DNA of 15,269 nucleotides from a bacterium (GTDB lineage: Bacteria; JALSQH01). The notes below the pieces were generated by a model. The model saw only the letters and a program-made list of their open reading frames with translations, was not told the origin of the DNA and searched no databases. Positions 545-15,136 of this stretch are shown here, one piece after another. The stretch covers positions 1 through 15,269 of the forward strand of contig JALSQH010000085.1 of NCBI GenBank assembly GCA_026985515.1, written 5' to 3'. A program made the position numbers and the translations under genes. Position 1 is the first letter of the stretch. The number at the start of each line of letters is the position of its first letter.

Positions 545-573
545 ATAATATTCCCATTTTGCTTAAAAATCAA
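545..573 (-). promoter_or_regulatory. Sigma-70-like promoter for the truncated sensor-like gene
   Basis: On the minus strand, TTGATT (573-568) and TATTAT (550-545) are separated by exactly 17 bp. The -35 element overlaps the stop codon of the thiolase gene. Transcription would start near 538, inside the hairpin at 515-541, so that hairpin would form at the very 5' end of the message. Only the match to the consensus supports this. Confidence 0.45.
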
Positions 574-1760
574 GGTGTCCTGTATATCGCCACTGCTGCT
601 ACTGATCCTGGCCCTCCCAGATTGTGAATCAGACCAAGTTTGGGATTTTTCACCTGCATTTTCCCTGCTCTACCAAGGAGTTGCTGATAAATCTGATATG
701 TCATTCTCACCCCTGTGGCGCCTATAGGATGTCCACAGGATTTTAATCCACCACTTGTGTTGACGGGAAGTTTTCCATCAAGGGCTGTTATACCCTCCCT
801 TATGAGGGTTGCACCTTTACCCTTTTCCACAAAGAAGAGGTCTTCATAGTTGATAATCTCGGTTATGGTGAAACAATCGTGAACCTCAGCGACTCCGATT
901 TCATCAAATGGATTTTTAATTCCTGCTTCCTCGTAAGCCATTTTGGCAGCCATCTGGGTTGATCTGAAACCGATGTATTGCTCGTAGGGGTCAAAGTATC
1001 TTGCATCGGTGGTGATGGAAAGCCCAATTGATTTAATAAGTACATAATCTCCATTGGGCTTAAGAGATTTTGCAATTTCCGGAGTGGTGAGAATGGCTGC
1101 AGCTGCTCCATCGGCAACGGTACTGCAATCATAGAGTCCCAGGGGATCTGCTATCATATACGCATTCATCACAGTGTCAATGTCAACCTGTTTTCTTATA
1201 TGGGCCTTTGGATTCAGACTACCATTGTAGTGATTTTTTACTGCCACAAGAGCCAGATCTTTTTTTGTCGTACCAAATTCGTGGAAATGTCTGTTTGCCA
1301 TGAGGGCAAACATACCGGGAGCAGTCTGACCCTTTCCAATAACTGGATGGCCGTTGAGGAGTGTCTGCCTGATCAGACTGTCCCTTGAACCAACATCTCT
1401 CATCTTTTCCTCACCAAGCACAAGGACAATTTTGTACTGACCAGCGGCAATGGCATAGGCTGCATTTCTCAATGCATCCATACCGGTGGCGCAGTAGTTG
1501 GAAACCCTGCTTGATGGTCTGTCCCACAGTCCAAGAGCTTCAGCAAGATAAGAACCTGCCTGCCCCTGAAATCCACCTGCCATATTTGGTTCAAAAACCC
1601 CAAGCCACATGGCCTCTATCTGGGATGGTTCTATGCCAGCATCCTGTATTGCTTCAACATACGCCTCTACAGCCAGATCCACAAATCCTGCGTCAAATCT
1701 ATCCCCTAATTTTGTTTGTCCCATACCGATTATTGCAACCTTATCTTTTAAACCCTGCAT
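570..1760 (-). CDS. Acetyl-CoA acetyltransferase-like thiolase (SCP2/archaeal type)
   Basis: This 396-residue thiolase condenses or cleaves acyl-CoA units. The N-terminal half carries the nucleophilic Cys90 in the motif SNYCATGMDA. The C-terminal half has the HDCF motif typical of SCP2-type thiolases (His294), GHPIGATG with the catalytic His344, and HNLGG near the end in place of the CxG loop of classical biosynthetic thiolases. Length and motifs match the subgroup that pairs with DUF35 proteins. The ATG at 1760 follows a strong AAGGAGGAG Shine-Dalgarno sequence. The gene starts 17 bp after the stop of the HMGS-like/DUF35 gene and shares its transcript. In archaea, a thiolase, an HMG-CoA synthase and a DUF35 protein form one complex that channels acetoacetyl-CoA; a physical complex here is inferred from that precedent. 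Substrate is unknown: the pathway may run in the beta-oxidation or the condensing direction. Confidence 0.9.
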   Translation of the reverse strand: MQGLKDKVAIIGMGQTKLGDRFDAGFVDLAVEAYVEAIQDAGIEPSQIEAMWLGVFEPNMAGGFQGQAGSYLAEALGLWDRPSSRVSNYCATGMDALRNAAYAIAAGQYKIVLVLGEEKMRDVGSRDSLIRQTLLNGHPVIGKGQTAPGMFALMANRHFHEFGTTKKDLALVAVKNHYNGSLNPKAHIRKQVDIDTVMNAYMIADPLGLYDCSTVADGAAAAILTTPEIAKSLKPNGDYVLIKSIGLSITTDARYFDPYEQYIGFRSTQMAAKMAYEEAGIKNPFDEIGVAEVHDCFTITEIINYEDLFFVEKGKGATLIREGITALDGKLPVNTSGGLKSCGHPIGATGVRMTYQIYQQLLGRAGKMQVKNPKLGLIHNLGGPGSVAAVAIYRTP

Positions 1761-1777: not shown

Positions 1778-3241
1778 TTATTTGCCTCTAACTGGTCTTG
1801 CTTTCCAGTAGTAGTTGTAAAATCCCTTCGCCCTGTGGAAAATTCTGAAGGTCAATTCAACCTCTTTATCTATCAGGCTTGATTCTTTATCCTGCCACTC
1901 GGGAGGCATATCTGTTAACTGTGTGAATGTTCTTCCTCCTCCCTCAAAGTCAACAACTGCCATTCCTACTGGATGCTCAGGATTTGGTATGGCTCGTTCC
2001 CTGGTGAAGGTAACTATTTTGCCTCTTCTTGAAAGTTTGAATGGTTCAAATTCATCTATGGCACCACACTTTGGACACACTCTTTTGGGTGGGAAGTAAA
2101 TAGAGCCACATTTTTTACACTTCACACCGTAAAGAGAGAGGATTGTTTTCTTTTCCCTGTACAGTTCTGTTACAGATGTGTAGGGTTCTGCAGGCCAGAG
2201 GCCTTTTTTTGTTACAATTTCCTCCCTCCATTTCAGAACCTTGGTGTAGTATGGAAGATCAATTTTGCTGCCGAGCCAGTCCCGAACACTTCTCTTACCC
2301 TTTTTCTTGAAATCTTCTATTGCCTCTGTTACCCTGAAAGAGAAAGCTTCTGCACCATCTCCATAAGAAATAAGAATTATTCTTTCGCCGGGATTTGCCT
2401 CTTCCAGGGCCAGGACGCATTGAAGAAGAACATTTGCCACTCCCGGATTGCCTACTCCAAGGAGAAGTGTGGGGTCCTGGTTCAGTTTCACGGCAAAATT
2501 TCCAAGACGTTTTGCAAGGGCCCTGTACGTATTTGCATCTGATGCGTAAACGATAATTTTGCTAACATCATCTGGAGTCAGATTGAGTTTTTTGGCAAGA
2601 CCTTCAAGGGCTTTTGGCACCATGTTGAGGTAACCAAAAATAGATGCAGCCTTTTCATCATCTGAAAAGATGTACTTGTCTTCCCTCTTTCTCCAGTAAT
2701 CGAGAAGTTCCTGTGAGAGCAGATAACTTCCTTCAAATTCTGCAATTACATCGTCACCCTCTCCCACAACAACAGCAGCAGATGCGTCTCCGCTCATCGT
2801 TTCCATGATACTTTCCGGCTCATAAAGCCTTACATCTGAGGCAACCACCAATCCTTCTTCAAATGCACCGGCTTTAACGCCGTTGAGAGCCACCAGCATT
2901 GCACTTGTGCCGGCCCTGAGACTGTTTGCAAAATCGATGGTGCTTATGGAGGATGGCAGGTCAGCTATTTCTGCGAGGGTGCTTGAGGAATTTTTTTCCA
3001 GATATGGGGCGGTGGTTGAGGCGAAGTAAAGTGATCCAATTTTTGAAGCATCTCTTCCCTCCAGAGCAAGGAGAACCGATTCCGATGCCATGGTGAGAGC
3101 ATCTTCGTCATAGTTTGCAACTGCCTTTTCTCCCAGCAGCATCTTCATGATGAAGGGGTCATACCCCCACGCCTCACCTATCTTCTGCCGCTGAATACGG
3201 TGGGCTGGAATGTAGGAACCAACATCTTTAATTCCAATCAT
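1778..3241 (-). CDS. HMG-CoA synthase-fold protein fused to a DUF35 zinc-ribbon/OB domain, catalytic Cys and His not conserved
   Basis: The 487-residue protein has two parts. Residues 1-310 follow the HMG-CoA synthase/KAS III thiolase fold, with PYLEK (Glu82), GNPG (Asn265) and SYGDGAEAF conserved. Residues 370-487 form a DUF35 unit: a zinc ribbon with Cys375, Cys378, Cys389 and Cys392, followed by an OB fold that usually binds CoA or bridges partners. Where HMG-CoA synthases have the nucleophilic Cys (archaeal ACKAGT), this protein reads NSLRAGT, with Ser107-Leu108 and no cysteine before Cys275. The usual His of the HQPN region is also absent (YASDANTY, residues 232-239). From memory, a whole bacterial subfamily shares the NSLRAGT motif, so this looks like a conserved variant and not decay. 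It is unlikely to make HMG-CoA for mevalonate. It is the first gene of the operon, with AAAGGAG ahead of the ATG, and probably works with the thiolase encoded next. Confidence 0.85.
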   Translation of the reverse strand: MIGIKDVGSYIPAHRIQRQKIGEAWGYDPFIMKMLLGEKAVANYDEDALTMASESVLLALEGRDASKIGSLYFASTTAPYLEKNSSSTLAEIADLPSSISTIDFANSLRAGTSAMLVALNGVKAGAFEEGLVVASDVRLYEPESIMETMSGDASAAVVVGEGDDVIAEFEGSYLLSQELLDYWRKREDKYIFSDDEKAASIFGYLNMVPKALEGLAKKLNLTPDDVSKIIVYASDANTYRALAKRLGNFAVKLNQDPTLLLGVGNPGVANVLLQCVLALEEANPGERIILISYGDGAEAFSFRVTEAIEDFKKKGKRSVRDWLGSKIDLPYYTKVLKWREEIVTKKGLWPAEPYTSVTELYREKKTILSLYGVKCKKCGSIYFPPKRVCPKCGAIDEFEPFKLSRRGKIVTFTRERAIPNPEHPVGMAVVDFEGGGRTFTQLTDMPPEWQDKESSLIDKEVELTFRIFHRAKGFYNYYWKARPVRGK

Positions 3242-5546: not shown

Positions 5547-7674
5547 AAAAGCAATCCTTGCGATTTTTTTCGCTTTTCATCTTTTCATCAGTGGATGTAT
5601 CACTTCATCCTCTGGTAGAAAAGAGAGGATCTATTCTCATGAAGTAACATACTCCACCTATCTTTCTTTTGCTCTCATGAGGGATTATGTGAAGTTTGGT
5701 GATTACAGGGGAGCTCTCAGGGTATATGAGAGCTTCCATGGAAAGAAGACAGTTAATCTTGAATTTCTTGCCGCTTATACTTTGATGAAGCTGGGCAGGT
5801 ACAGTGAAGCAGCTGAGAAGTTTTTCATGCTCTATAAAAAAGGGTTTCTGCCTGATTATTCTCTTTACTTTGCAGGGTTGAATTATTTTAAAAGTGGAAA
5901 TTTTTATGTAAGTAAGGATCTATTTGAACTTCACCTCAGTTCTTTTCCTTCTTCAATCTTTGCCAGTGAGGATAGATGTCTTCTCACCAAGATAACTGGT
6001 AAACTTGGATTGAGAAAGGTTTATGAGGGTGATTTCCCAAATTCAGCAGATTGTCTGTATACAAGGATCCTATCTGAGAAAAACAGGCAGAGGATGGTTG
6101 CTCTTGTAAAGGATTTTCTCGTTACTTACCCGGGGCATCCCTATGAAGAGGAAATTCTTGATAGGGCAGGGGCTACAGTTTTTACACTGCTTGATCTGGA
6201 TTCTTTGAAGAAGAGATGGGAGAGGATGATCGGGAGGGGAGAATGGAAGATTCTGAAGAGAGAGGCCAGGAAGTATTTGAAGAGGACGGGGGATAGAGGT
6301 TGTTACTATTATTTGCTGGGAAAGATGAGGTTCAGAATGAAGGATTACTCTTCCGCAGCAAGATACTTTGTTAAAGCAAGAAAAATGAGGAAAAATAATT
6401 GTGCAGAAGAGGTCTTATACAATCTGGGGCGCACCTACGCAAGGCTTGACAGAAACAATGACTCAATAAAGATTTTCAGAACCCTATTGAAAAAGTTTCC
6501 CAACACCAGGTTCAAAGAGGATACAATTTACAGATTGGGGCTTGTATATACATACATGAAGGTTACAGATTCTGCAATCTCAGCTTTTGAAAATTATCAT
6601 CTTGCCTATCCTTCGGGTAAGTATATAGAGGATGTTTTGTGGAAACTGGCAATGTACAGTTATTCTCGCGGAAACACAACTGCTTCAATCAGTTATTTGA
6701 AGGAACTTTATGAGAAGGGCCACAGACTGAGAAAGGCTCAATCCCTCTACTGGCGGGCTAAATGGGATAAAAGTAACCGGGAAAAGTATCTAAAAGAACT
6801 CCTTACACATTTCCCCTTGTCATTTTATGCCTATGTTTCATCACGCTGTTTGAGTAGCAGAATGCCTGTGATGACTCCTGAAATCAGATTTTACGCCGAG
6901 ACGATCACAGGACTTGTGAATGATACCACCACAGTTACAGAATCTTCTCACATATACAATATAAAGCATCTCCTCGAACTTGGATTAAACAGATATGTTG
7001 CCTCTGAAGTTAAGATTCTGGTGGAGAGCGCCACAAAGAAAAGGGTTATGGCTTATCTGCTCGGGGGGTGGTTGAATCACAGAAAACTCTTCTATCTTTC
7101 CCAGAAGTTAATAGTCACGTATTTCCCTGATCAGATGTTGCTGGTGAGTTTTGATAATCCTGTGTATCTTGATCTGACAAGGCTGGTTTTCCCTATGGCA
7201 TACAGGGAGATTGTGGAACAATGGGCGGAAGAGACAGGTCTCTCCCCTGAATGGTTGTGGGCGATTATGCGGCAGGAAAGCAGATTTAATCCCATGGCAG
7301 TATCTGTGGCTGGTGCTATTGGATTGATGCAGATTATTCCGCCAACTGCCGGAAAAATAGCTAAAAAGATATATTACTATTTTGACACCATTGATCTTTT
7401 CAATCCTGATGTGAATGTGATGCTTGCCTCTTACTACCTTAAGTTCCTTTTTAAGCAGTTTAATGATCCTGTTTTTGTTGCTGCAGCTTACAATGCAGGT
7501 GAAGACAATGTGGATAGGTGGAGGAAGCAGATAAATTATAGCTGCATAGATGAATGGGTGGAGGAAATACCCTTTGATGAGACACGGAAATATGTCAAAA
7601 AAGTTATTGGTAACTGGTTGACCTATAACTTCCTGAAGAGGATAGCTTTTTATGAAGCCAGTGGTAGTTATTGA
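5539..7674 (+). CDS. Lipoprotein lytic murein transglycosylase with TPR repeats (Slt family)
   Basis: The 711-residue protein begins with a lipoprotein signal (hydrophobic stretch, lipobox FISGC, lipidated Cys20). Residues 30-470 are helical repeats of TPR type, with several clear units that follow A/G-Y/F spacing, for example around residues 262-285 and 296-320. The C-terminal SLT domain (about 560-700) contains the catalytic Glu580 in MRQESRFNP, then GAIGLMQIIPPTA, and AAYNAG. This order matches Slt70-type exolytic transglycosylases that cleave murein glycan strands to 1,6-anhydro products. Slt70 itself is soluble in the periplasm, while this one would be tethered to a membrane by its lipid. 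It overlaps rarA by 8 bp and the next gene by 23 bp, so the three are probably co-translated. A role in wall turnover, or in making room for an envelope complex, is inferred. Confidence 0.9.
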   Translation: MNKKAILAIFFAFHLFISGCITSSSGRKERIYSHEVTYSTYLSFALMRDYVKFGDYRGALRVYESFHGKKTVNLEFLAAYTLMKLGRYSEAAEKFFMLYKKGFLPDYSLYFAGLNYFKSGNFYVSKDLFELHLSSFPSSIFASEDRCLLTKITGKLGLRKVYEGDFPNSADCLYTRILSEKNRQRMVALVKDFLVTYPGHPYEEEILDRAGATVFTLLDLDSLKKRWERMIGRGEWKILKREARKYLKRTGDRGCYYYLLGKMRFRMKDYSSAARYFVKARKMRKNNCAEEVLYNLGRTYARLDRNNDSIKIFRTLLKKFPNTRFKEDTIYRLGLVYTYMKVTDSAISAFENYHLAYPSGKYIEDVLWKLAMYSYSRGNTTASISYLKELYEKGHRLRKAQSLYWRAKWDKSNREKYLKELLTHFPLSFYAYVSSRCLSSRMPVMTPEIRFYAETITGLVNDTTTVTESSHIYNIKHLLELGLNRYVASEVKILVESATKKRVMAYLLGGWLNHRKLFYLSQKLIVTYFPDQMLLVSFDNPVYLDLTRLVFPMAYREIVEQWAEETGLSPEWLWAIMRQESRFNPMAVSVAGAIGLMQIIPPTAGKIAKKIYYYFDTIDLFNPDVNVMLASYYLKFLFKQFNDPVFVAAAYNAGEDNVDRWRKQINYSCIDEWVEEIPFDETRKYVKKVIGNWLTYNFLKRIAFYEASGSY

Positions 7675-10438
7675 GTTTATTTTGTTTTACCTGATCCTTC
7701 TCATTGTGCCACTCCGGGCAGGTGAGTATCCTCCCGGCCTCAAATGGTATACCCTGGAAACAGAGCATTTCTATATTTATTATCCTGAGGATTTGAAGGA
7801 AGTTGCTCAGAAAATTGGTTTTATTGCTGAGGATGTCTATGAAAAGCTCGTCCCTTTTATGAGGTGGATGCCAGACAGAAAGGTTGATGTGGTGTTGAAT
7901 GACTTTACAGATCTTGCCAATGGATTCACAACATTTGTACCTTCAAACAGAATTGAACTTTTTTTAACACCTCCTCCCCTTGAATCCCAGCTGAACAACT
8001 ACAACGACTGGCTCTATCTTCTGTTTACCCATGAATTTACCCATACTTTACATATTGACCAGAATGGAGGTATCGCCTCCCTCTCAAGGTATCTTTTTGG
8101 TAGATTTTACTACTCTCCGGCTCCTTTTCTTCCTTCAATACCTGTGGTATTTTTCCCTTCATGGATTCATGAGAGTATAGCTGTTTACAATGAGACATTG
8201 TTTACCGGAAAGGGTAGGGGTAACAGTCCCTATACAGATATGGTTATTTTCACTGCTCTTCTTGAACACAACTTCCCCACCCTTGCGCAACTCATTACCC
8301 CACCTCCTTCCTGGCCAGATGGTTATATTCCCTACATTTTCGGAGAGGAATTCCTCAAGTTTTTGATTAACAGGCACGGAAAAGAGGCACTTTACAGATC
8401 TTTCAGACTTGAAAGAAACTATATTTTCCCTTTCTGGGAAGAGATCCTGCACTTCTTTTCGTTTCACACACCAATGGAAGCTGACTGGAATGCGTGGAAG
8501 AGGTATCTCTTTGATGAAGCAGAGGAGAGAGGTTTTAAACTTCGCAGAAGAGGTGTGAAGTTTATTTCACCACCCCAGTGGGGACACTCTTCTCCTGTGT
8601 GCATGGGTGGGAAGGTGTACTATGTAGAAATATCTGGCTACAGAGAGAGGAGGCTGATCCTGTATGATCCTCTGACAGGCAGCAGGAAGGTTCTTATTAA
8701 AGGTAAAATTCTTCCCTACCTCACCACAGATGGAAGGTATCTTTACTATTCAAAAATCGATTTTTTTGAGAGGCATTATCTATTTTCTGATCTTTACCTT
8801 TATGATCCTCTTAAAGGTACGGAAAAAAGATTAACATGGGGTAAGAGATTGAAGTACCCTGTTTCTGACGGAAAGTTCATTTATGCTCTCAAAGTAACAT
8901 GGAAAGGTGTCTGGCTTGTAAAGATCAGCTTTGATGGTTCTGTTCTTGATTCATACAGAATACCCGGTGCAGATAATGCCGCTTTTCTGATTGTTGACAG
9001 GAAAGGTGATAGATTGATTTTCAGTGTGCATAAGGAAGGGAGTGTCGTTATAGAAAGTTTTGATCCTTCAAACGGTGAGTTTCATGATATAACAGATGAA
9101 GGATGGATTGACCTTTATCCAGGTTTTACACCGGAAGGAGATATTATTTTTTCTTCAAGCCGTGGTAATAAAGGTTTCAATCTTTTTATGATCTCTGACG
9201 GAAAAATAATACCTGTAACCCGGGGTTTTGGTGGTTACTTTAAAAGTTGCTTCCTGGACAAGAGACATATAATTGTGGACCTTTACACCAGCAGAGGTTT
9301 CAGGGTAGCAGAAATGAAAGTCCGAAAAGGTAAAAAGAGGAAATTGCAGAAAAAGGTTACAGAAGATTTCTCTTCCCCGGCAGGTGAAGGTAAAGTTTTC
9401 CAGCCTTCAGGGAGATACAATCCTTTTTCACATCTTTCACCTGCTGCTGTTTTCCCCGAAATTTCATACTCCCCGGTGTGGAAGTGGAGAGCCGGTTTTG
9501 AGCTTAAGGGTGGTGACCCCCTCAACTTTGTCTCTTATGATTTTCAGATTGATAGAAAAATGTCCTTTAACACCACTGACTTTTCCGGGTGGATAGTCTT
9601 GAGCAGATTTGACCCTGACATTGCAGCGGGTGGAGGTATACTCTCAATTCCGGCAGATAAGTCTGGTAAAAGGGCATTCGTGAAGAAAAAATTTTTTACT
9701 TTTCAGATGCTGTATAATTCCCCTTCTCTAAATGATATTTCAAAGGCTATTGTATTTACATACAGTTTCGCATCTACCTCTACAGAAGAAGGTGGCGCAA
9801 GAGTTACCTTTCAGTATTCCACGGTAAAAAGTTATCCCGAAATATGGCGCTTGAATGACGGTTTTTATGCAGGGCTATCCCTCATCTCCTATTCACCTTT
9901 TCTTGGTTCTCCCTACAACACGGCTGGGGTTATAACAGATTTCAGGGATTATTTTTCAATTCTTCCTGATGTGCTTGGAAGGTTCGAAGTTTATGGGGGT
10001 ATCACCGGAGGGGATGGGAGAAAAGATCTGAAAATAACTCCTGGAGAAAATGCATATAAATCTGATCCCTTTTATTACTCTGTCCCCTCAGAAAACTCTT
10101 TTAACTTTTATGGTTACCTGGAAGGTGAAATCAAAGCCTATACTCTGGGAGCTTTCTCGACCTCTCTTGATTTCAGAGTGTGGAGAATTAATGATGGATT
10201 TGGGGCTCTTCCCTTCTGGATCGGGGAGGTATGGGCAACTTTTTTTACTCAACATGTTTTCTCTGCCTCTAAAAAATTTTCCATACCTGATGAATACCAT
10301 GGAAATGTTGGAACATCCTTCACTTTTAACTTCGTGGCAGGTCATTTGATCCCCTTTTACATTAAGTTTGTGGTAACTTACAGGATCCCCGATGGCAAAA
10401 CTCTTGAGAGCTTTTATGTTTCTTTTTACCCCCTGTGA
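7652..10438 (+). CDS. HExxH metallopeptidase with beta-propeller and C-terminal outer-membrane beta-barrel-like region
   Basis: The 928-residue protein has an N-terminal signal peptide (hydrophobic residues 5-22, likely cleaved after LRAG). Residues 28-290 form a gluzincin-type peptidase domain: HEFTH (His127, Glu128, His131) supplies two zinc ligands and the general base, and Glu174 in WIHESIAVYNE is the likely third ligand. Residues 300-560 are beta-rich repeats with motifs such as LYDPLTG, LYLYDPLKG and SRGNKGFNLFMISDG, consistent with a TolB/DPP-IV-like propeller. From about 590 (YNPFSHLSPA) to the end, alternating aromatic and polar strands fit an outer-membrane beta-barrel. I recall similar undescribed proteins in Bacteroidetes-related and candidate phyla; none has a known role to my knowledge. 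It overlaps the Slt gene by 23 bp, with GAAGAGGA as ribosome-binding site. TolB is excluded by the peptidase and barrel parts. Substrate unknown; possibly lipoproteins or murein-associated proteins. Confidence 0.75.
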   Translation: MKPVVVIEFILFYLILLIVPLRAGEYPPGLKWYTLETEHFYIYYPEDLKEVAQKIGFIAEDVYEKLVPFMRWMPDRKVDVVLNDFTDLANGFTTFVPSNRIELFLTPPPLESQLNNYNDWLYLLFTHEFTHTLHIDQNGGIASLSRYLFGRFYYSPAPFLPSIPVVFFPSWIHESIAVYNETLFTGKGRGNSPYTDMVIFTALLEHNFPTLAQLITPPPSWPDGYIPYIFGEEFLKFLINRHGKEALYRSFRLERNYIFPFWEEILHFFSFHTPMEADWNAWKRYLFDEAEERGFKLRRRGVKFISPPQWGHSSPVCMGGKVYYVEISGYRERRLILYDPLTGSRKVLIKGKILPYLTTDGRYLYYSKIDFFERHYLFSDLYLYDPLKGTEKRLTWGKRLKYPVSDGKFIYALKVTWKGVWLVKISFDGSVLDSYRIPGADNAAFLIVDRKGDRLIFSVHKEGSVVIESFDPSNGEFHDITDEGWIDLYPGFTPEGDIIFSSSRGNKGFNLFMISDGKIIPVTRGFGGYFKSCFLDKRHIIVDLYTSRGFRVAEMKVRKGKKRKLQKKVTEDFSSPAGEGKVFQPSGRYNPFSHLSPAAVFPEISYSPVWKWRAGFELKGGDPLNFVSYDFQIDRKMSFNTTDFSGWIVLSRFDPDIAAGGGILSIPADKSGKRAFVKKKFFTFQMLYNSPSLNDISKAIVFTYSFASTSTEEGGARVTFQYSTVKSYPEIWRLNDGFYAGLSLISYSPFLGSPYNTAGVITDFRDYFSILPDVLGRFEVYGGITGGDGRKDLKITPGENAYKSDPFYYSVPSENSFNFYGYLEGEIKAYTLGAFSTSLDFRVWRINDGFGALPFWIGEVWATFFTQHVFSASKKFSIPDEYHGNVGTSFTFNFVAGHLIPFYIKFVVTYRIPDGKTLESFYVSFYPL

Positions 10439-13984: not shown

Positions 13985-15136
13985 TTAAATTACGCCCTTT
14001 TTTTTGAGAGATTCCAGTTCATCTAGTCCAAGTTCTTTGAGGATCTTCTCCGTGTCTCTTCCGATGTCTGGTGCCTCGCCAATTTCATCCTTTCTGAGAT
14101 TCCTGACAGGAAATTTGAGAAATCCTCTGCCATTCTCATCTTTCCCTATAACTTCATTTTCTCTAATGAGGGGGCTTTTCAGAAGGTTTTCAAAATCATT
14201 GACTGCCTCACAGCAGAAATCATACTCCTCATTCAGCTTTTCCCATTCCTCAACTGTTTTTGATTTAAATATCTTTTCCAGTTCTTCCCTTACTTTTTCC
14301 CCCTCCTTCCCTGTTGCAAAGGCTTTATCCAGTAGATCTTCTCTTCCCACGGCTCTGCAGAAATTCTGCCAGAACTTGGGTTCAAGAGCGGCAAGGGAGA
14401 CATACCCATCTTTTGCTCTGTATATTCTGTAGCATGGGTAAAGTCCATTGAGAGTGTATCCCTCGGGTCCGGGAGATTTACCTGAGGCAATAAATTCCGC
14501 AAATCCCATTACTGTAAAAGGGATACTCCCGTGGGTCATGGATATATCAAGAAATTTGCCTCTTCCTGTGGTGCTCCTCTCAATCAGCGCAGCGAGAACG
14601 GATATGAGTGTCATATAGGCTCCGCCCCCTATATCTGCCACCTGAATGCCCAGATGAAGGGGACCCGTTTCTCTTGTCCCGTTAAGAGAGGCGATCCCGT
14701 TGATTGATACATAATTCAGATCATGCCCGGCTCTCTTGAGATATGGAGTTTCTCCATATCCATATCCAGTTACAGCTGCATAAATCAATGAGGGGTTTAT
14801 CTCTGAAAGTGTTTCATAGCCCAGATCAAGAGAATCCATCACTCCAGGTCTGAAACTTTCCACAAGAACATCTGCTTTTTCAACAAGTTTTTTAAAAATT
14901 TCCCTTCCCTCTTCTTTCTTCAGATTCAGGGTTAAACTCTCTTTTCCCCTGTTGAGAATGTAAAAAAAGGAGCTGTATTTTCCGGTGAGTGGAGGTGTCC
15001 ATCTTATGTAATCTCCCCCTGATGGGTCTTCGATTTTTATTACCCTTGCTCCCATCTGTGCCATAAAAAGGGTGGCAAGGGGAGCAGGTAATAATCTGGA
15101 AAGGTCAAGTACAGTGATACCTTCAAGGGGAAGCAT
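13985..15136 (-). CDS. Alpha-methylacyl-CoA racemase-like protein (CoA-transferase family III)
   Basis: The 383-residue protein belongs to the CaiB/BaiF family. It opens with LEGITVLDLSRLLPAPLAT, the usual N-terminal signature, followed by VIKIEDPSGGD. Three residues that act in alpha-methylacyl-CoA racemases are present at similar spacing: His138 in GHDLNY, Asp168 in VADIGGG, and Glu252 in LEPKFW. Racemases use these to epimerise 2-methylacyl-CoAs between R and S forms; CoA transferases of this family use the Asp alone, so a transferase role cannot be excluded, but the His and Glu favour racemisation. The ATG shares its A with the stop of the enoyl-CoA hydratase gene (TAATG), so the two are coupled. 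The product may let S-specific beta-oxidation enzymes accept branched acyl-CoAs. Confidence 0.8.
   Translation of the reverse strand: MLPLEGITVLDLSRLLPAPLATLFMAQMGARVIKIEDPSGGDYIRWTPPLTGKYSSFFYILNRGKESLTLNLKKEEGREIFKKLVEKADVLVESFRPGVMDSLDLGYETLSEINPSLIYAAVTGYGYGETPYLKRAGHDLNYVSINGIASLNGTRETGPLHLGIQVADIGGGAYMTLISVLAALIERSTTGRGKFLDISMTHGSIPFTVMGFAEFIASGKSPGPEGYTLNGLYPCYRIYRAKDGYVSLAALEPKFWQNFCRAVGREDLLDKAFATGKEGEKVREELEKIFKSKTVEEWEKLNEEYDFCCEAVNDFENLLKSPLIRENEVIGKDENGRGFLKFPVRNLRKDEIGEAPDIGRDTEKILKELGLDELESLKKKGVI

Follow-up and report, generated by a model that had tools for sequence, protein, structure and literature searches.

A fused HMG-CoA synthase-like and DUF35 protein that lacks the catalytic triad is probably a non-catalytic thiolase subunit

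In archaea, thiolase, HMG-CoA synthase and DUF35 occur as individual chains that together form one channelling complex (PDB 6ESQ), in which the synthase keeps its Glu-Cys-His triad and is a working enzyme; the key residues of the archaeal synthase are Glu82 and Cys114 (PMC6392133). The Friedel-Crafts acylase PhlABC (PDB 5M3K, 5MG5) also consists of three chains, of which PhlA is HMG-CoA synthase-like without the Cys and Glu, PhlB is a DUF35 protein and PhlC has the thiolase fold with the active Cys88. The PhlA cavity adjoins the PhlC active site, the substrate is acted on by PhlC residues only, and the PhlA lobe was judged not to be directly involved in acyl transfer; all three subunits are needed, and the whole operon must be co-expressed (PMC6392133). 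Going by its title, MucABC (PDB 9VBO, 9VBT) is a multi-component acyltransferase that likewise contains an HMG-CoA synthase-like subunit. In the benzoylsuccinyl-CoA thiolase BbsAB (PDB 7PXP), a catabolic thiolase is joined by a DUF35 subunit, with no HMG-CoA synthase-like lobe among the chains seen. Fusions of DUF35 to members of the thiolase superfamily, and PhlA as an inactive member of that superfamily, were already noted in 2010 in the SSO2064 paper (PMC2954200), whose excerpted text holds no analysis of the catalytic residues of the fused HMG-CoA synthase family or of its pairing with a thiolase. Our literature search combining DUF35 and HMG-CoA synthase found no study of the fused family as such.

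The window analysed here is the whole 15,269-nt stretch of contig JALSQH010000085.1. It encodes the same three modules as the 6ESQ complex, but with synthase lobe and DUF35 joined in one chain and the triad gone (Table 1). The initial annotation had read the locus as an HMG-CoA synthase fold joined to a complete DUF35 and paired with an intact thiolase, and had described the archaeal counterparts correctly as separate chains; domain matching bore out this reading, with both DUF35 Pfam models over their cut-offs in the fusion protein. The thiolase ORF follows the fusion ORF after 17 bp, and these two genes alone seem to make up the operon. Elsewhere in the window are a 928-aa protein with a metalloprotease-like HEFTH motif and no Pfam match (7652-10438, plus strand) and a Family III CoA-transferase (13985-15136, minus strand), the latter about 11 kb away from the pair.

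Table 1. Features of the fusion gene and the neighbouring thiolase gene, in window coordinates.
Feature	Position	Strand	Basis
Pseudo-HMG-CoA synthase-DUF35 fusion protein, 487 aa	1778..3241	minus	ORF
HMG-CoA synthase-fold lobe, residues 1-343	2213..3241	minus	Sequence alignments and fold match (residues 1-341 on 6esq_I)
Triad positions in the HMG-CoA synthase-fold lobe: Thr76, Leu108, Tyr232			Alignment to 6ESQ
Nucleophile loop FANSLRAGTS, residues 104-113, Leu108 replacing Cys	2903..2932	minus	Alignments
DUF35 rubredoxin-like zinc ribbon, residues 369-394, Cys375/378/389/392	2060..2137	minus	Pfam zf-ChsH2 PF12172, E 2.2e-09
DUF35 OB-fold domain, residues 403-466	1844..2035	minus	Pfam OB_ChsH2_C PF01796, E 3.4e-07
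DUF35-partnered-type thiolase, 396 aa, catalytic Cys90/His294/His344	570..1760	minus	Pfam thiolase domains

An AlphaFold2 model of the fusion protein (pLDDT 81.3, pTM 0.84) had as its best structural matches the 6ESQ HMG-CoA synthase (6esq_I; Z 40.0, rmsd 2.6 Å over 326 residues, 30% identity), PhlA (Z about 38) and MucA (Z 35.6). By this match, the overall fold of an HMG-CoA synthase is predicted to be present. The catalytic residues were mapped with phmmer and MAFFT alignments against 6ESQ, in which the archaeal Glu, Cys and His fall on Thr76, Leu108 and Tyr232, i.e., the complete triad is lost. Leu108 takes the position of the nucleophilic Cys inside the loop DFANSLRAGTS, and Tyr232 that of the HQPN-type His; the initial annotation had likewise read Ser107-Leu108 in the loop and noted the His as missing around residues 232-239. 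Its further statement that Glu82 was retained does not hold: the archaeal Glu82 aligns with Thr76, and Glu82 of the window protein aligns with a Val of true archaeal-type synthases, so that the earlier assignment was a coincidence of numbering. With the catalytic Glu gone too, nothing of the triad remains, and the loss goes further than first reported. Asn265 is indeed present, although Asn is found there in only 50 of 98 fused sequences.

These losses extend to the whole fused family. Residues were counted in an alignment of 98 distinct fused sequences, the window protein included, of which 97 lack the entire triad and one keeps the Glu alone. The alignment with characterised synthases and with the fused subfamily, which had been suggested from the outset, showed that none of the 98 has a Cys where the nucleophile would be, and none a His at the His position; the old triad positions are hydrophobic or variable (Leu, Ile, Val or Thr at 108; Tyr, Pro or Asp at 232). 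All 98 keep the four zinc cysteines. In a separate search, Glu, Cys and His were missing from 18 of 18 fused sequences, and Glu-Cys-His-Asn was intact in 9 of 9 unfused relatives. A chance motif was rejected on this family-wide pattern. In the DUF35 part of two plasmid homologues (L183 and L186), a single zinc cysteine of the four is kept (C-T-S-Q and C-T-S-P).

The notion that the protein is a true HMG-CoA synthase whose catalytic residues have moved elsewhere draws on HMG-CoA synthase being the best-scoring full-length family for residues 1-343 (NCBIfam PRK04262, 213.8 bits). However, this score lies under the curated cut-off of 244, as do those of eight homologues, all three catalytic groups are lost, and no HMG-CoA reductase was found in the window genome, which is 97.6% complete. 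We rejected this explanation, the triad, cut-off and pathway all being negative, and regard it as highly improbable. GcpE of the MEP pathway is present in the same genome; despite this, the DXP reductoisomerase model had no match there, which could reflect a different reductoisomerase or a gap in the assembly.

The family was collected by an alignment-based profile scan of named genomes, a single-sequence scan having given no matches. One such scan returned 579 related stretches, in line with the widespread family first supposed, of which 80 were retained, and a search of 59 further genomes added more. Bacterial members occur in Chloroflexota, Myxococcota, Thermodesulfobacteriota, Bacillota, Rokuibacteriota, Methylomirabilota, Armatimonadota and Pseudomonadota, and one member is an Alkanophagales archaeon; on plasmids, homologues were also found in Rhodococcus and haloarchaea. 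The supposition that such proteins are commonly labelled HMG-CoA synthase stood only in part. One paper does name a copy in this way (EGO55_13555, in the oestradiol operon; PMC7793797), but the window protein falls short of the NCBIfam cut-off, and plasmid copies are labelled 'OB-fold domain-containing protein', '3-oxoacyl-ACP synthase III C-terminal', 'UPF0219' or 'hypothetical'.

In a maximum-likelihood tree, the fused sequences occupy one side of a branch with support of 100/100, with the unfused synthases and the PhlA/MucA sequences as separate groups across it; the PhlA/MucA clade (97/91) does not include the window protein. Seven plasmid homologues group with the fused set, the branch support being 99 after their addition. 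When a bacterial HMG-CoA synthase was used as outgroup, PhlA/MucA and the fused clade fell on one side (96/86), though the rooting is uncertain. A single shared loss of the Cys is therefore possible, but the long branches make this weak.

Loss of catalytic residues might also mark a decaying gene that is a functionless remnant. Against this, the frames are open across at least nine phyla, the loop and zinc sites are conserved, and dN between the window fusion gene and its nearest relative is 0.11 against a saturated dS, in a comparison where the window's phylum is represented by only two genomes. The conservation, and a dN far below the saturated dS, led us to reject decay, the probability of which we consider close to negligible; the dN and dS values support maintenance of the fusion gene by selection. 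In this nearest relative (G001), the fusion gene is split across two contigs, C211 and C145 (L044 and L045, 86% and 84% identical), and the thiolase is 94% identical to that of the window.

The pairing with an intact thiolase is equally a family trait. Of the 98 fused genes, seven lie near a contig edge, leaving 91 testable loci, and in 84 of these a thiolase gene is directly downstream (82 on the same strand without overlap and two overlapping), most gaps being shorter than 60 bp. In the other seven, where there was room downstream, no thiolase was found. The fused genes at the Rokuibacteriota loci L068, L077 and L083 gave no thiolase match downstream. The window thiolase exceeds the cut-off of NCBIfam PRK06157 (468.7 bits against 403), its closest solved relatives include the 6ESQ thiolase, BbsB and PhlC, and it keeps the catalytic Cys90, His294 of HDCF and His344 of GHPIGATG. 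Cys90, HDCF and the GHP His are invariant in the partner thiolases wherever the sequence is present. Just upstream of the fused gene, five loci carry a gene of the CoA-transferase family (613 aa in L068). The window genome has a second thiolase (446 aa) with a stand-alone DUF35 protein (178 aa) immediately after it at G000:C198 656-2535 (L050), a pair without an HMG-CoA synthase-like lobe.

Since the triad is lost and the family stands almost always beside an intact thiolase, the fusion protein is most likely a non-catalytic subunit of that thiolase and not an HMG-CoA synthase, an identification that we hold to be probable. The non-catalytic scaffold suggested in the initial annotation is thus well supported by the family-wide triad loss, the intact adjacent thiolase and, by analogy, the solved PhlA precedent. 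In sequence, the window pair has the PhlABC-type layout, with a synthase-like part lacking Cys and Glu, a DUF35 and an active-type thiolase-fold partner, and PhlABC, which the initial annotation had overlooked, is the nearest functional precedent. Both halves of BbsAB also match the window pair. Related non-catalytic subunits being already known, the fusion is probably a variant on the PhlABC and archaeal theme.

As a mechanism, we suggest that the fusion would set the ratio of pseudo-synthase to DUF35 at 1:1 and that the protein and the downstream thiolase presumably come together in a complex resembling 6ESQ or 5M3K. In such a complex, DUF35 and the pseudo-synthase lobe may contribute to the cleft that binds CoA and form one wall of the cavity for the substrate, and Cys90 of the thiolase, with His294 and His344, would do all of the acyl-transfer chemistry. 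With no second Cys there would be no second condensation, so that the pair is proposed to be a plain 3-ketoacyl-CoA thiolase. The complex would run mostly in the cleaving direction, on substrates that are probably branched, alicyclic or aromatic-derived acyl-CoA compounds.

It is also conceivable, as the initial annotation allowed in speaking of a differently catalytic scaffold, that the lobe works as an enzyme beside the thiolase through a new active site, catalyzing hydrolysis, retro-aldol cleavage or another acyl-CoA step. Thr76, Glu82 (89 of 98), Arg109, Arg138 and Asp152 are near-invariant in the fused family and different in true synthases, and could form such a site; thiolase folds can serve in other kinds of chemistry, as in the Sal aldolase (PMC12329534), and another activity was suggested by Ibero et al. 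for the oestradiol-operon copy (PMC7793797). However, the old triad positions offer only hydrophobic or variable residues, Arg138 and Gly267 are shared with PhlA, whose lobe was judged to have no direct part in acyl transfer (PMC6392133), and Arg138 and Asp152 are missing from some plasmid homologues. We judge a new active site to be unlikely, and the narrower idea that in degradation pathways it runs an additional acyl-CoA step, one linked to that of the thiolase, to be a shade more doubtful still.

The surroundings of the homologues bear on the role of the proposed thiolase subunit. Their neighbours include acyl-CoA dehydrogenases, enoyl-CoA hydratases, SDRs, CoA ligases and CoA-transferases, with at least one same-strand acyl-CoA metabolism gene within 5 kb in 49 of 91 loci, a count that has no genomic baseline. 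In the window genome itself there are 20 matches to acyl-CoA dehydrogenase and five genes for thiolases. Each of the seven annotated plasmid regions has a catabolic look, with the triad lost and the thiolase intact. Ring-hydroxylating dioxygenases are found alongside in Variovorax SRS16 and in Rhodococcus qingshengii; the region of Novosphingobium ES2-1 carries a P450, an indolepyruvate ferredoxin oxidoreductase and VOC proteins. The role of the fusion protein is most likely in the breakdown of acyl-CoA compounds together with the thiolase. These same operons, with their dioxygenases, dehydrogenases and hydratases, are of the degradation type and argue against a biosynthetic acyltransferase of the PhlABC or MucABC kind that passes an acyl group to a non-CoA acceptor. 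Such a function would accord with PhlABC and MucABC being the closest structural precedents after 6ESQ and with PhlA likewise lacking the Cys and Glu. However, PhlA and MucA form a clade of their own; we consider this function improbable. Compared with the window pair, PhlABC has three chains and carries out biosynthetic acyl transfer without added CoA, and MucABC is unfused; the aligned MucA sequence, too, has no Cys where the nucleophile would be.

The ES2-1 plasmid locus (acyl-CoA dehydrogenase, SDR, fusion, thiolase, two hydratases, hypothetical protein, lipid-transfer protein, DUF35, P450) mirrors the gene order of operon OpA in the oestradiol (edc) cluster of Novosphingobium tardaugens. 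In that operon, Ibero et al. could not assign EGO55_13555, called 'HMG-CoA synthase', to a step and doubted that it performs a condensation (PMC7793797). EGO55_13555 is likened to the ES2-1 fused homologue by gene order alone, and a non-catalytic thiolase subunit is a candidate answer to this published puzzle.

What these observations add is a name for the family and a possible answer to a published question, not a new kind of system. A large and poorly named protein family gains a testable identity, and it presents a clean case, across many phyla, in which a lobe of an enzyme has become a subunit joined to its DUF35 bridge. If the assignment is true, expression without the fusion partner would leave many catabolic thiolases inactive or unstable, which would bear on pathway assays and on gene assignment for such thiolases.
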